From contig NZ_JAQVCN010000046.1 in assembly GCF_028689785.1 (NCBI RefSeq), positions 1-41,230 on the forward strand: 41,230 nucleotides of DNA, read 5' to 3'. A model generated the notes under the pieces. That model was given only the letters and a program-made list of their open reading frames with translations. It was not told the origin of the DNA and did no database searches. Below, piece by piece: positions 26,784 to 32,271 of this stretch; position 1 is the stretch's first letter; every line of letters starts with the position of its first letter. The position numbers and the translations under genes are program-made. This DNA comes from Zoogloea sp. GTDB lineage: Bacteria; Pseudomonadota; Gammaproteobacteria; Burkholderiales; Rhodocyclaceae.

Positions 26784-27821
26784 TCAGCGGCAGGCCAGCC
26801 GGAATGCGTTGCGGATGCCTTCTTCGTCCAGATTGCGCCCGATCAGGATCAGGGTGCAGTTGCGGGCCTCGCCCGGCGCCCAGGGGCGGCCGTAGTCCGA
26901 GCCGCTCAGGCGATGCACACCTTGCAGCACCACCCGGCGCGCTTCGTCGCGGATGGCCAGTACGCCCTTGTAGCGGAGCAGGGCCGGGCCCTGGCGCACC
27001 AGCAGCTCCTCGACGAAGCTGGCCATCAGGCGGGAATCCACCGGGCCGTCGTGGATCAGGGCCAGGGACTGGATCTCGTCGTCGTGGCGGACAAAGCTGC
27101 GGTGCTTGCCGCCGCCCCGGCGCAGACCGCTGGGCACTGCAGCATCAAGGAAGGCCGGGATCTGCTCCAGCACGTCGTCGAGACGGAAGGCGTCGAGGGC
27201 AAACAGGGCCTTGAGGGCTGGGGCATCATCGGGCACGGGGCTGATCGGGGCCCGCAGGTTGATGCGGCTCAGGCGCTGCTCCAGGGCTGCCAGTTCGTCC
27301 GCGCCTATCTGTTCGCCTTTGCTGATCAGGATGCGGTCGGCAAAGCCGATCTGGGCGGCGGCGACCTTGTTGGCGGCCAGCTGCCCGGTGGCATGAACGG
27401 CATCGACCACCGTGATGATGCCGTCGAGGGCATAGCGGCCGGCCACGCCCTCGTCGAGAAAGAAGGCCTGAGCCACTGGTGCCGGGTCAGCCAGGCCGGT
27501 GGTCTCGATCACCAGATGGTCGAAGTTCAGCTCGCCTCGATCGCGGCGGTCCGCCAGCCGGGCAAGGGCGTCGGACAGCTCGCCACGCACGCTGCAGCAG
27601 ATGCAGCCGTCGGTTAGCTCGACCACCTCGACGGCCGACGATTCGGCCACCAGGCCGCCGTCGATGCCCACGCTGCCGAACTCGTTCTCGAGCACAGCCA
27701 CCCTGAGTCCGGAGCCCAGGGCCAGGAAACGGTTGAGCAGGGTTGTCTTGCCGGCACCGAGAAAGCCGGTGAGGATGGTCGCCCGGATGAGCGGCCGGGG
27801 GAGGACCAGGGGATTATGCAT
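26784..27821 (-). CDS. CobW/COG0523-family G3E GTPase (metal chaperone-like)
   Basis: A 345-residue P-loop GTPase. Walker A is GFLGAGKT (19-26), followed by ENEFGSVGIDGGL and the metal-binding motif GCICCS (Cys-73, Cys-75, Cys-76), then ETTGLADPAPVAQ. The guanine-specificity motif, usually NKxD, reads SKGE here. A CobW C-terminal domain spans about 235-335. Family members insert or deliver Zn2+, Co2+ or Ni2+; the target is unknown and no Zur site is visible to me. I chose ATG 27821 over a TTG at 27887, since the family start is just before the Walker A strand. It stands downstream of the ParA-like gene on the same strand with 81 bases between. Confidence 0.88.
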   Translation of the reverse strand: MHNPLVLPRPLIRATILTGFLGAGKTTLLNRFLALGSGLRVAVLENEFGSVGIDGGLVAESSAVEVVELTDGCICCSVRGELSDALARLADRRDRGELNFDHLVIETTGLADPAPVAQAFFLDEGVAGRYALDGIITVVDAVHATGQLAANKVAAAQIGFADRILISKGEQIGADELAALEQRLSRINLRAPISPVPDDAPALKALFALDAFRLDDVLEQIPAFLDAAVPSGLRRGGGKHRSFVRHDDEIQSLALIHDGPVDSRLMASFVEELLVRQGPALLRYKGVLAIRDEARRVVLQGVHRLSGSDYGRPWAPGEARNCTLILIGRNLDEEGIRNAFRLACR

Positions 27822-27902
27822 GGGGGCAGGCGAAATATCCTGGTCGGAGGGCGAGGGGAGAGAAGGCGCTGCGAGAGGCGGTGTCAAAGGTTCGGCGGGC
27901 TT

Positions 27903-28919
27903 TTATAACGTGATGCCTGTTTCAGCTGCAATCCTTGATGCAAGCTGTTTGAAGTCCTTCCGTGCGTCATTGACGGCATTGGCGTGGCTGCCGATGGCGC
28001 CATCTGCCGCGCTCAGGTTGAAGATGGGCTTGCGGTGCTCCTGCCCCATCGGGATCAGGCTGCGGTAGTGCTTGATGGTGGCGAGGCAATAGGGGTCCTG
28101 CTCCTGTTTCATGCCTTCCACAGCGTCCTCGTTCAGCACCGCTGTGCGGTAGACCGAGGGTATGCGCTGAACCCACTTGTCGTAAGCTCTCACGGGGCGG
28201 TCCAGCCGGACGCCATGTTGCTGGCACAAGTACCCGATTGGCTGCATCGTGCCGGCAGGGAGCTGGAAATCAGGATACTGGGATTTGTCCGGGCCCTCCT
28301 GCCAGTTCCTCAGTCGCCGCTCCCAAAGGTTTCTCCAGCTCTTCAGGGTTGGGCCCAGGTTGCTGAGGCCTTGAAGGGAGAAGAGATCTGCACCGAGGGG
28401 GATGGCGACGTAGTCCGTTGCGAGGAGGGCCGATCGGTTGATGGCACCCAGGTTGGGGCCGATATCCACCAGAACCATGTCGGCCTGGATTTTCTCTGCA
28501 GCCGATTGCATCACTTGCCAGAAGGCAGTGAGAATACGCATCGGGCGATAGAGATTGGTTTCCTTCATGCTATTGGGCCATTCGCCCGACAGCGTGTCTT
28601 CAAAGCTCGACAGGGCTACGTCACCGGGCAGGAGATAAAGATCGGTTGCAATGGGCTGTAGGACGGGGAAGCTTATGTCGCCAACCCCGGTCAGCGGTTT
28701 GACGCACTGGAAGATCGTTGTCCCCGGCCCTTGTTTGTTCCAGATCTGCTCAATCCGGTCCTCGTCCAGGAAGGCGGCGGTCAAGTTGGCCTGCGGGTCC
28801 AGGTCCACAACCACGATGCGCTTGCGGAGACTCGCGAACATCCACGCCAGGTGGTAGATGAGCGAGGTCTTTCCGACTCCGCCCTTGTTATTGAAGAAGG
28901 TCAGTACAGGTGTGCTCAT
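27903..28919 (-). CDS. ParA/MinD-type ATPase, possibly part of an accessory two-gene system
   Basis: A 338-residue protein with the deviant Walker A of ParA ATPases, NNKGGVGKTS (10-19, signature Lys-12 and Lys-17), Walker A' DLDPQANLT (39-47) and a Walker B region MVLVDIGPNLG (148-158). It carries C-terminal extensions (about 200-338) not found in classical plasmid ParA, with no ParB-like gene nearby. It starts inside the stop of the AlbA_2-type gene (ATGA), so the two are one unit. Base composition is clearly lower in G+C than parE/parC. It could be a plasmid-derived partition protein, or the ATPase of a defence or mobile-element cassette; the sequence does not decide. Confidence 0.85.
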   Translation of the reverse strand: MSTPVLTFFNNKGGVGKTSLIYHLAWMFASLRKRIVVVDLDPQANLTAAFLDEDRIEQIWNKQGPGTTIFQCVKPLTGVGDISFPVLQPIATDLYLLPGDVALSSFEDTLSGEWPNSMKETNLYRPMRILTAFWQVMQSAAEKIQADMVLVDIGPNLGAINRSALLATDYVAIPLGADLFSLQGLSNLGPTLKSWRNLWERRLRNWQEGPDKSQYPDFQLPAGTMQPIGYLCQQHGVRLDRPVRAYDKWVQRIPSVYRTAVLNEDAVEGMKQEQDPYCLATIKHYRSLIPMGQEHRKPIFNLSAADGAIGSHANAVNDARKDFKQLASRIAAETGITL

Positions 28920-30124
28920 GATTTACTCTTGAACACGCAGACTACGGTGCTCTGGTTGGTTTCGAACTCGATGGGTGGATTGCCGTTGTTGTCCATAGCG
29001 CGACGCGCCGTCGCGATACCCCGACCAAATGCCTGGATGAAGCCATATACCTTCAGAACGTCGGCAATATTCGGGTTCCGATAATCCGTAATGCCTGGCC
29101 TGCCGAAGTTCTCGTCGGTGACATTGCCGTAGGGGCCACCTGGGCTGCTGATTTCGATTCGATCATTGAACCAATAGACGCGGACTGGAGCGTTGGTGCT
29201 CTCGTAGGCTCGATGTAGAACGGCATTGTAGAGGATCTGCTGGAGTGCGACCTGGGGATAAGGCGTTGCGAGTTGGTGTGTCACTGATTGGGTGATATCG
29301 ACGCTTGTCCGGTTATGTGCTTTCAGCTTTTCCTCTGTGCGCCGCAGGATCTCAACGATTCCACCTCCGATTTCTTCCTCATCAAGGATGGGGTCGGCAA
29401 GCTCAGTTCCGTCAATTCTCAAAAACTGGACATAGGCTCCGGGCAGAAAGTCCTGGGGGCTCTTGCCGATCGCCAGCAGACCCACGACAGTCGGGGTCGG
29501 GTCATCGGGGGACAGGATCATGCGGCATGAGGCGAGCCGCTCTTCGTAGCTCCGTCCATTGGCTTCCAGTACATCGTCCGCAAAGGCGTTCGGCATGTAC
29601 TCGTTCTCGAAAATACTCCTGGAGAGATCGGTCAGTCTGGCTGTCGGTACGGGGTAAATGTCGAAGGGAATGTTTTTGTAGCGCCGCCGTTCGTTGAGGA
29701 TGCGTTCCTCTTGCTCATTTGCGAGCGCTCGCCGAGGGCCAGTACGGATCCATATCCGGCCTTCGAACTTGACCGGCGGCATGTCGGAGGGCATTACCGT
29801 GACAACGGCGATCTCCTGATTCTTCAATACGCGCTTTTCCACCGACAAGACCGGCAGGGGCAGGATGTTGCCGTCTGTCTTCATGTCGGCGAGCGACATC
29901 AGGAGCTGGTCTGTGATCTGAAGTGCGCTGGGTTCCCCGTTGTCCTTGGCGCCGATGAAAAGCATGCCTGGCTGGTTATGACCTGGCAGGTCGTTTGAAA
30001 AGGCACACACGGCCTGACGCGCTTTTTTCGGGACATCCCCCTTGAAGGACTCCTTGCGCTCCACGCGGTCCGACTCTAGATCGTTCAGTAGATCCAGCAG
30101 TTGATCGTCTGTCAGTCGTTGCAT
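28916..30124 (-). CDS. AlbA_2 (Schlafen-like) plus HATPase_c_4 domain protein
   Basis: A 402-residue protein with an N-terminal AlbA_2/divergent AAA_4 region (about 17-150): ESDRVERKESF, AVCAFSNDLPGHNQ, GMLFIGAKDNGEP, and GRIWIRTGPRRALAN. The C-terminal part (about 290-390) has the HATPase_c_4 pattern: LQQILYNAVLHRAY, NDRIEISSPGGPYGN, DYRNPNIADVLKVYGF and AFGRGIATARR. Such proteins are usually annotated as ATP-binding or putative transcriptional regulators and are frequent in mobile and defence regions. It precedes and overlaps the ParA-like gene. Sampled G+C (48% at 28921-28980, 52% at 29161-29220, counted by hand) is well below neighbouring parC (72% at 24961-25020), which suggests transfer. 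Activity is unknown. Confidence 0.85.
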   Translation of the reverse strand: MQRLTDDQLLDLLNDLESDRVERKESFKGDVPKKARQAVCAFSNDLPGHNQPGMLFIGAKDNGEPSALQITDQLLMSLADMKTDGNILPLPVLSVEKRVLKNQEIAVVTVMPSDMPPVKFEGRIWIRTGPRRALANEQEERILNERRRYKNIPFDIYPVPTARLTDLSRSIFENEYMPNAFADDVLEANGRSYEERLASCRMILSPDDPTPTVVGLLAIGKSPQDFLPGAYVQFLRIDGTELADPILDEEEIGGGIVEILRRTEEKLKAHNRTSVDITQSVTHQLATPYPQVALQQILYNAVLHRAYESTNAPVRVYWFNDRIEISSPGGPYGNVTDENFGRPGITDYRNPNIADVLKVYGFIQAFGRGIATARRAMDNNGNPPIEFETNQSTVVCVFKSKS

Positions 30125-30206
30125 TCTTGTGGCCTGAGTAGATGCCCTGTCTAGGCTGAAGGGCGTCCCGGTTGCACGGGCTTGAGCGGAGGCTCTCGAG
30201 TTACCG

Positions 30207-30236
30207 ATATTCTTTCATACTGCAAGGCACGGTCAA
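30207..30236 (-). promoter_or_regulatory. Weak promoter candidate for the AlbA_2-ParA pair
   Basis: On the minus strand TTGACC (30231-30236) and GAATAT (30207-30212) are spaced by 18 bases, in the 146-base gap between parE and the AlbA_2-type gene. The -10 match is only three of six bases, so this is a tentative call. Confidence 0.3.
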
Positions 30237-30270
30237 TGGTGCTTGCGCCCTTTTCCGATCGTGCCGGATT

Positions 30271-32271
<2,001 letters not shown>

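Follow-up and report, generated by a model that had tools for sequence, protein, structure and literature searches.

A ParA-type ATPase paired with a Schlafen-like protein in Zoogloea belongs to a subfamily that exchanges its effector-like partners

Introduction

The familiar task of ParA ATPases is to move DNA. What, then, does a ParA do that has no ParB of its own and whose gene overlaps that of a Schlafen-like protein? The question is raised by contig NZ_JAQVCN010000046.1 of Zoogloea sp. (assembly GCF_028689785.1), whose 41,230 nucleotides, the whole stretch analyzed, are called the window below. The unit in question consists of a gene for an AlbA_2/Schlafen-like protein with a HATPase_c_4 region (hereafter the AlbA_2 protein) and a gene for a ParA-type ATPase with a long C terminus. 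A preliminary description made from the sequence had taken the pair for an acquired, self-contained unit that matched no named system.

With a probability that we put at about 0.6, the pair would be one branch of a modular two-gene toxin/abortive-defense family, in which a constant and distinctive ParA is combined with an interchangeable effector and, in this branch, controls a Schlafen-type RNase. Behind this proposal stand the conservation, coinheritance, and horizontal spread of the pair and, decisively, the swapping of effectors by the long ParA. The swap was overlooked by the preliminary description, which was right about the pair itself but made less of it than it deserves.

Conservation and spread of the pair

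A ParA gene adjoined the AlbA_2 homolog in 8/8 loci fetched from the order sample, window included, and in 17/17 other loci of the phylum sample, which come from 15 genomes; one genome is common to the two samples. Genome G193 yielded two further order-sample matches, and the one read (L205) also has an adjoining ParA. Close AlbA_2 homologs are uncommon, being present in 16 of the 398 phylum-sample genomes, the Zoogloea genome included. A scan of genome_contigs gave at least 546 AlbA_2 relatives of any closeness (E ≤ 1e-3), of which the best 80 were kept. These are the best-scoring relatives and not a random sample; they come from many phyla and are 54 to 98% identical to the window protein. 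Some lie on contigs of metagenome-assembled genomes (MAGs), where misbinning is possible, and isolates of Thauera, Methylovulum, and Desulfobacter are included. ParA adjoins AlbA_2 in 70 of the 80, partly deleted in one case (L058), and 46 of these 70 pairs share the four-base ATGA overlap of the window (coordinates extrapolated). Distances between AlbA_2 proteins correlate with those between their ParA partners (Mantel r = 0.71, with 0 of 999 permutations as high) over the window and the 68 of the 70 pairs that passed the length filter. The link is specific, since in 22 remote AlbA_2 loci (L009 to L030, 21 of them alignable) nothing matched this ParA in the flanks covered, which reached up to 1.5 kb per side. 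The recurrence of the two genes together is thus more than chance.

Copies in various stages of decay were also seen. The AlbA_2 gene is frameshifted in L007 and split by an apparent IS30-type transposase gene in L008/L182 (seen in L008), in both cases beside a full-length ParA; it lies in two open reading frames (ORFs) in L200. ParA has an altered Walker A loop in L003 and an internal deletion in L058.

At the Zoogloea site, the pair looks acquired, because relatives lack it there, its G+C content is low, and it is spread over many phyla. Matches to parE were obtained in 62 other genomes of the family, and 24 parE loci were fetched; the pair was within 1.5 kb of parE in 0/24 of them, and parC was within that distance in 15/24. 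One of the 24, G283, is the one other searched genome of the genus (parE 93% identical) and carries different genes at the site. A Zoogloea MAG (L031, parE pieces 94 and 97% identical) does have the pair beside parE, followed by extra sequence, cobW, and parC. The G+C content is 56.0% for the AlbA_2 gene and 58.7% for the ParA gene, against 64.7% for the window and 67.8% for parC, and at third codon positions it is 67% and 75%, against 81 to 87% in seven other measured genes (parC, 87%). The compositional shift first described is therefore real, but smaller than an earlier hand count had made it, and the view of an acquired, self-contained unit stands.

A phage or plasmid origin was considered and rejected: viral and plasmid matches are few, and the pair, mobile as it is, is yet no typical phage or plasmid gene. 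Among viral_contigs, the AlbA_2 scan gave one match, on a contig ending inside the gene (L111), and the ParA scan gave one contig with the whole pair (L112; 43% and 50%). Plasmid and phage records held no match of at least 60% to either protein, and one of the 80 best loci (L034) lies on a Cupriavidus plasmid.

Partners of the long ParA

Searching plasmids and phages with ParA (tblastn) returned near-full-length relatives of 25 to 33% identity. We read 19 plasmid and phage places (L206 to L213 and L215 to L225) and 8 of 11 ParA-like viral contigs (L112 to L119). A SIR2-like protein follows ParA in L207, L208, L210, L215, L216, L217, L114, L115, L117, and L118; Pfam SIR2_2 confirmed this in L207, L208, L210, L215, L216, L114, and L117, the other cases being assigned by sequence similarity. 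The ParA and SIR2 genes overlap by 4 to 17 bases in the nine measured. The partner is a HEPN_RiboL-PSP protein in L211, a RelA_SpoT protein in L220, and a 236-amino-acid protein in L221.

To avoid hand-picking, 349 phylum genomes were searched with a long-ParA profile, and 34 matched at E ≤ 1e-40. In the 29 loci fetched besides the window, the neighbor of ParA was AlbA_2 in 18 (several partial), SIR2_2 in 4, RelA_SpoT in 3, HEPN in 2, a homolog of the L221 protein in 1, and none in 1 (L264); an effector-like neighbor is therefore present in 28 of 29. The count covers these 29 loci, with eight further matches outside it; the sample overlaps the 398-genome phylum sample. Since only ParAs whose partner type was known went into the profile, less common partners may be undercounted. 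The HEPN partners, of family HEPN_RiboL-PSP, keep the R-x4-H motif in 3/3. Toxic effectors are typically of such kinds as SIR2, HEPN, and small RelA/SpoT enzymes. Modular toxin or abortive-defense units are built in this way, from a constant ATPase and effectors that can be exchanged, and AlbA_2 would occupy the effector slot.

Some partners and settings deserve mention in their own right. The protein of L221 (4989-5699) and its counterpart in L273 (2572-3180), of about 200 to 240 amino acids, have no Pfam match; they carry FLDxLG and RGG motifs and look nucleotidyl-cyclase-like by eye only. In viral contigs L114 and L115, the ParA-SIR2 pair comes immediately after an ORF that looks integrase-like by eye, which suggests a mobile cargo unit. 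Filamentous phage Pf1 (L212) and temperate Salmonella phage SE1 (L213) have long-ParA relatives that stand alone, that of SE1 lying two genes from a CI-like repressor, a vicinity that often carries cargo genes; this ParA relative could be a superinfection factor or a decoy.

The ParA-type ATPase

The 338-residue protein matches Pfam AAA_31 (7.6e-27) and is a deviant Walker A ATPase, with K12, K17, D39, and D152 kept in 69/69 sequences; the loop glycines are altered in L083, L087, and L077. Its structural model is confident (predicted local distance difference test [pLDDT], 92.4; predicted template modeling score [pTM], 0.91), and its best match is 3pg5 (DIP2308 of Corynebacterium diphtheriae), followed by Soj and other ParAs. 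The C-terminal extension, called unusual at first, in fact marks a ParA subfamily that has a solved structure, 3pg5, and a PHROG family, phrog_164.

In Walker motifs and fold, the protein thus resembles canonical partition ATPases of the ParA/Soj type, and it might be a degenerate partition module left over from a plasmid or an integrative element. Its matches in PHROG and NCBIfam are named as partition proteins, and those in NCBIfam fall far short of the cutoffs. Yet it differs from canonical ParA/Soj in its longer C terminus, its lack of a ParB, its effector partner, and its place in the tree. In a maximum-likelihood tree of 56 ParAs, 39 long ParAs were split from 17 canonical Soj-like rows (100/100); 17 AlbA_2-coupled ParAs, chosen by hand, formed one group (99/100), and 9 SIR2-coupled ParAs formed another (100/100). 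L220 and L221 are on long branches and uncertainly placed, the L220 row starting inside the protein. The genome has a single match to ParB_N, on contig C57 outside the window and directly behind a canonical ParA, so that the window ParA lacks a dedicated ParB, as the preliminary description had noted. Together with the chromosomal parE/parC context and the persistence of the pair, effector partner included, between unrelated genes, these features led us to reject the partition module, which we regard as very improbable.

The AlbA_2/Schlafen-like protein

The 402-residue protein matches SLFN_AlbA_2 (2.1e-12) and HATPase_c_4 (1.5e-18). Its AlphaFold2 (AF2) model has a mean pLDDT of 89.4 and a pTM of 0.61, which leaves the relative placement of the domains uncertain. 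The best fold match is 3lmm (DIP2311 of C. diphtheriae), followed by human SLFN11 and the catalytic and ATP-binding domains of histidine kinases; SLFN12 and SLFN13 are among the matches. The Schlafen nuclease triad is an acidic E/E/D. The alignment to SLFN12 covers E17 and E22, which fall on its acidic pair and are invariant where aligned (67/67 and 69/69).

GHKL ATPases have an N-box Asn, with the general-base Glu four residues earlier. Here, the Asn is N300 (69/69) and the base position is Q296 (68/69). Glu is found at this position in 11 of 25 loci from the order and phylum samples, among which one genome figures twice, and in 21 remote homologs. The Gln of this clade makes it plausible that its GHKL part binds nucleotide without hydrolyzing it. 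We had considered Gln at 296 as a mark of coupling to ParA and dropped the idea: a more distant ParA-coupled clade keeps Glu, and close homologs without ParA have Gln.

PADLOC 2023 has no model that covers both proteins; its matches are partial, the strongest (2.1e-17) being confined to a portion of the AlbA_2 protein.

Genomic neighborhoods

In the 80 best loci, we scanned the closest ORFs that lie on the strand of the unit and no more than 600 bases away from it, 87 in all. Families among them include N6_N4_Mtase (PF01555; 5), ResIII (5), SNF2 (4), DUF6079 (BrxC; 3), DUF1156 (3), and Fic (3), and the PADLOC BrxC model had 3 matches. PF01555 occurs in 5 of the 87 adjacent genes (E ≤ 1e-5), against 0.14 expected in 134 kb (Poisson, 5e-7), the expectation being taken from 372 matches (E ≤ 1e-6) in 345 Mb of the 80 genomes and the test assuming independent genes. 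By reading, 15 of the 80 loci abut a recognized component of restriction-modification (RM) or bacteriophage exclusion (BREX) systems within about 0.7 kb: BrxC in L036, L043, and L094, type III-like Res/Mod in L059, L065, L083, and L107, and BREX-related DUF1156/SNF2 or HKD-SNF2 genes in L067, L069, L092, L095, L100, L102, L106, and L109, where L092 and L109 have AlbA_2 without ParA. Two loci of the order sample, L202 and L205, are likewise nested in RM/BREX genes. Nesting of this kind is a minority state, yet for methylases it is well above chance. The recurrence beside defense genes proposed by the preliminary description thus holds for part of the best-scoring loci and not for the phylum sample, where 0/15 loci were nested in a tblastn search with twelve RM/BREX proteins; for this reason, we toned down the idea of a general enrichment in defense islands.

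In some loci (L100:2431-14729, L109, L069, and L205), the AlbA_2 gene stands in the middle of a set of BREX-related genes. The order in L100 is DUF499, a 332-residue protein, a DUF1156 methylase, AlbA_2, ParA, a 166-residue protein, and an SNF2 helicase. L100 and L109 have in common a protein of 166 to 168 residues, directly behind AlbA_2-ParA in L100 and behind AlbA_2 in L109, with no Pfam match for that of L100. On the Klebsiella plasmid pNDM-KN (L214), a remote AlbA_2 relative without this ParA sits in a type I RM operon in the order HsdR, TrlF-family ATPase, AlbA_2, HsdS, AAA ATPase, and HsdM.

The neighborhoods also bear on the idea that the AlbA_2 protein is a transcriptional or posttranscriptional regulator modulated by ParA. 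Annotation would agree with it, since AlbA_2/HATPase_c_4 proteins are frequently annotated as regulators or RecG-like helicases, plasmid relatives are labeled "transcriptional regulator" or "RNA-binding domain-containing protein," and the ParA relatives of Pf1 and SE1 are labeled putative regulatory proteins. However, no constant target gene lies nearby, the most widespread family besides the pair reaching 9 of the 80 loci, and the partners of sister-clade ParAs are enzymes typical of toxins rather than regulators. We judge a regulator to be improbable.

Organization of the locus

The coordinates of the unit and of its surroundings are given in Table 1. The preliminary description is in agreement with the ORFs, the Pfam domains, and the overlap sequence. 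Both genes are on the minus strand, the AlbA_2 gene upstream and the ParA gene downstream, and they are flanked by parE and a gene for a cobW-like GTPase, not by BREX or BREX-related core genes. A scan of the region for promoters and terminators gave one promoter-like match (30236-30209, minus strand), which was not above chance.

Table 1. Features of the two-gene unit and its flanks in the window
Feature	Position	Strand	Basis
AlbA_2/Schlafen-like + HATPase_c_4 protein, 402 amino acids (aa), presumed effector, first gene of the unit	28916..30124	-	ORF, Pfam, AF2 model
SLFN_AlbA_2 domain, aa 17-131	29732..30076	-	Pfam; residue conservation
HATPase_c_4 region, aa 312-397; GHKL-type N-box (Q296, N300) just ahead	28934..29191	-	Pfam; conservation
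ParA-type ATPase with long C terminus, 338 aa, second gene	27903..28919	-	ORF; Pfam AAA_31; near-full-length 3pg5 match
Four-base overlap ATGA, parA start inside the end of the AlbA_2 gene	28916..28919	-	Sequence
146-base gap before parE, 57% G+C	30125..30270	.	Sequence
parE, upstream neighbor, outside the unit	30271..32232	-	ORF, comparison with relatives
cobW-like GTPase, downstream neighbor, outside the unit	26784..27887	-	ORF, Pfam, comparison with relatives

Discussion

Several observations weigh against a modular family in which ParA controls a Schlafen-type RNase. The third acid of the putative nuclease site, D61, is Asp in 59 of 69 sequences, Asn in 9, and Glu in 1, and Gln replaces Glu at the base position in 79 of the 80 loci, a departure from the GHKL motif. 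ParA is not always needed, as 10 of the 80 close AlbA_2 homologs lack it. Among the ParA relatives read on plasmids, phages, and viral contigs, about half have no effector-like partner, none being apparent by reading in L113, L116, L119, L206, L209, L218, L219, L222 to L225, Pf1, and SE1. The gene order varies, the effector coming first with AlbA_2 and second with SIR2, HEPN, and RelA. Finally, most units stand alone between unrelated genes, and the phylum-sample result and the partition names of the database matches, described above, point the same way.

The standing alone of most units would also suit a toxin-antitoxin or addiction unit, which would secure its own maintenance or that of its neighborhood, with ParA as the antitoxin and without a specific antiphage role. 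Broken AlbA_2 genes beside full-length ParA, as in L007 and L008, are what one expects if the toxin is lost first, and a HEPN-ParA dyad has already been proposed as such a system: according to Anantharaman 2013 (PMC3710099), a HEPN (MAE_18760) RNase would be the toxin and ParA/Soj the antitoxin. The excess of RM/BREX neighbors argues in the opposite direction, and the AlbA_2 genes without ParA would be unchecked toxins. We consider an addiction unit unlikely, if a serious contender. The dyad resembles our unit in joining a ParA/Soj-type ATPase to an RNase-type effector; it differs in that the effector of the window is AlbA_2 and that the HEPN partners of related ParAs match HEPN_RiboL-PSP, not MAE_18760.

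The Schlafen half has a relative among described systems. According to the main text of Rakesh and Krishnan 2026 (PMC12839542), a Schlafen-family RNase fused to a minimal histidine kinase and a winged helix-turn-helix is a backup effector in BREX and BREX-related loci, and such effectors are present in at least 1,017 taxa. The claim that no named system contains the pair therefore holds for the two genes together and not for the Schlafen half. The architecture, Schlafen plus HATPase, is shared, and some relatives of the window unit lie beside BrxC or BREX-related components; in contrast to that effector, the window unit and most of its relatives stand alone, and they have a constant ATPase partner. 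The words ParA and partition are absent from the main text of that paper.

The closest solved structures of the two proteins, 3pg5 and 3lmm, are about 20% identical to them and come from one organism. DIP2308 and DIP2311 are three tags apart, DIP2311 is called a protein of unknown function in PMC8780604, and a DNA methyltransferase is located at DIP2314 (PMC13419099). This arrangement suggests that the pair also exists there in an ancient and strongly diverged form, adjacency being deduced from the tag numbers. In the open-access literature, with preprints outside the search, we found no description of an AlbA_2-ParA pair or of a swap with SIR2 or RelA/SpoT. The ParA-centered effector swap is a new element; a modular toxin or defense unit is of a known kind.

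Our current working model of the modular unit is as follows. The AlbA_2 protein would be an RNase, probably acting on tRNA or rRNA, that ParA either keeps silent or activates. Through ATP-dependent dimerization on DNA or the binding of a trigger, ParA may report infection or a loss of nucleoid integrity, and the released effector would then halt translation and abort the infection. Beside BREX or RM genes, the unit might serve as a backup once the primary system is blocked. More tentatively, we raise the possibility of a new class of immunity in which a nucleoid-bound ParA would be the shared sensor-switch for swappable killing modules (Schlafen, HEPN, SIR2, RelA/SpoT, and cyclase-like), its ATPase state turning invasion or nucleoid disruption into effector release.

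If these proposals are correct, the Schlafen effectors would gain a partner that is absent from the account of BREX loci in the main text of PMC12839542, and ParA would have, besides its known role, that of an immune or suicide switch. Many orphan genes annotated as "ParA family" in chromosomes, plasmids, and prophages would then be accounted for, and the long-ParA units would offer a ready set of two-gene units for testing.

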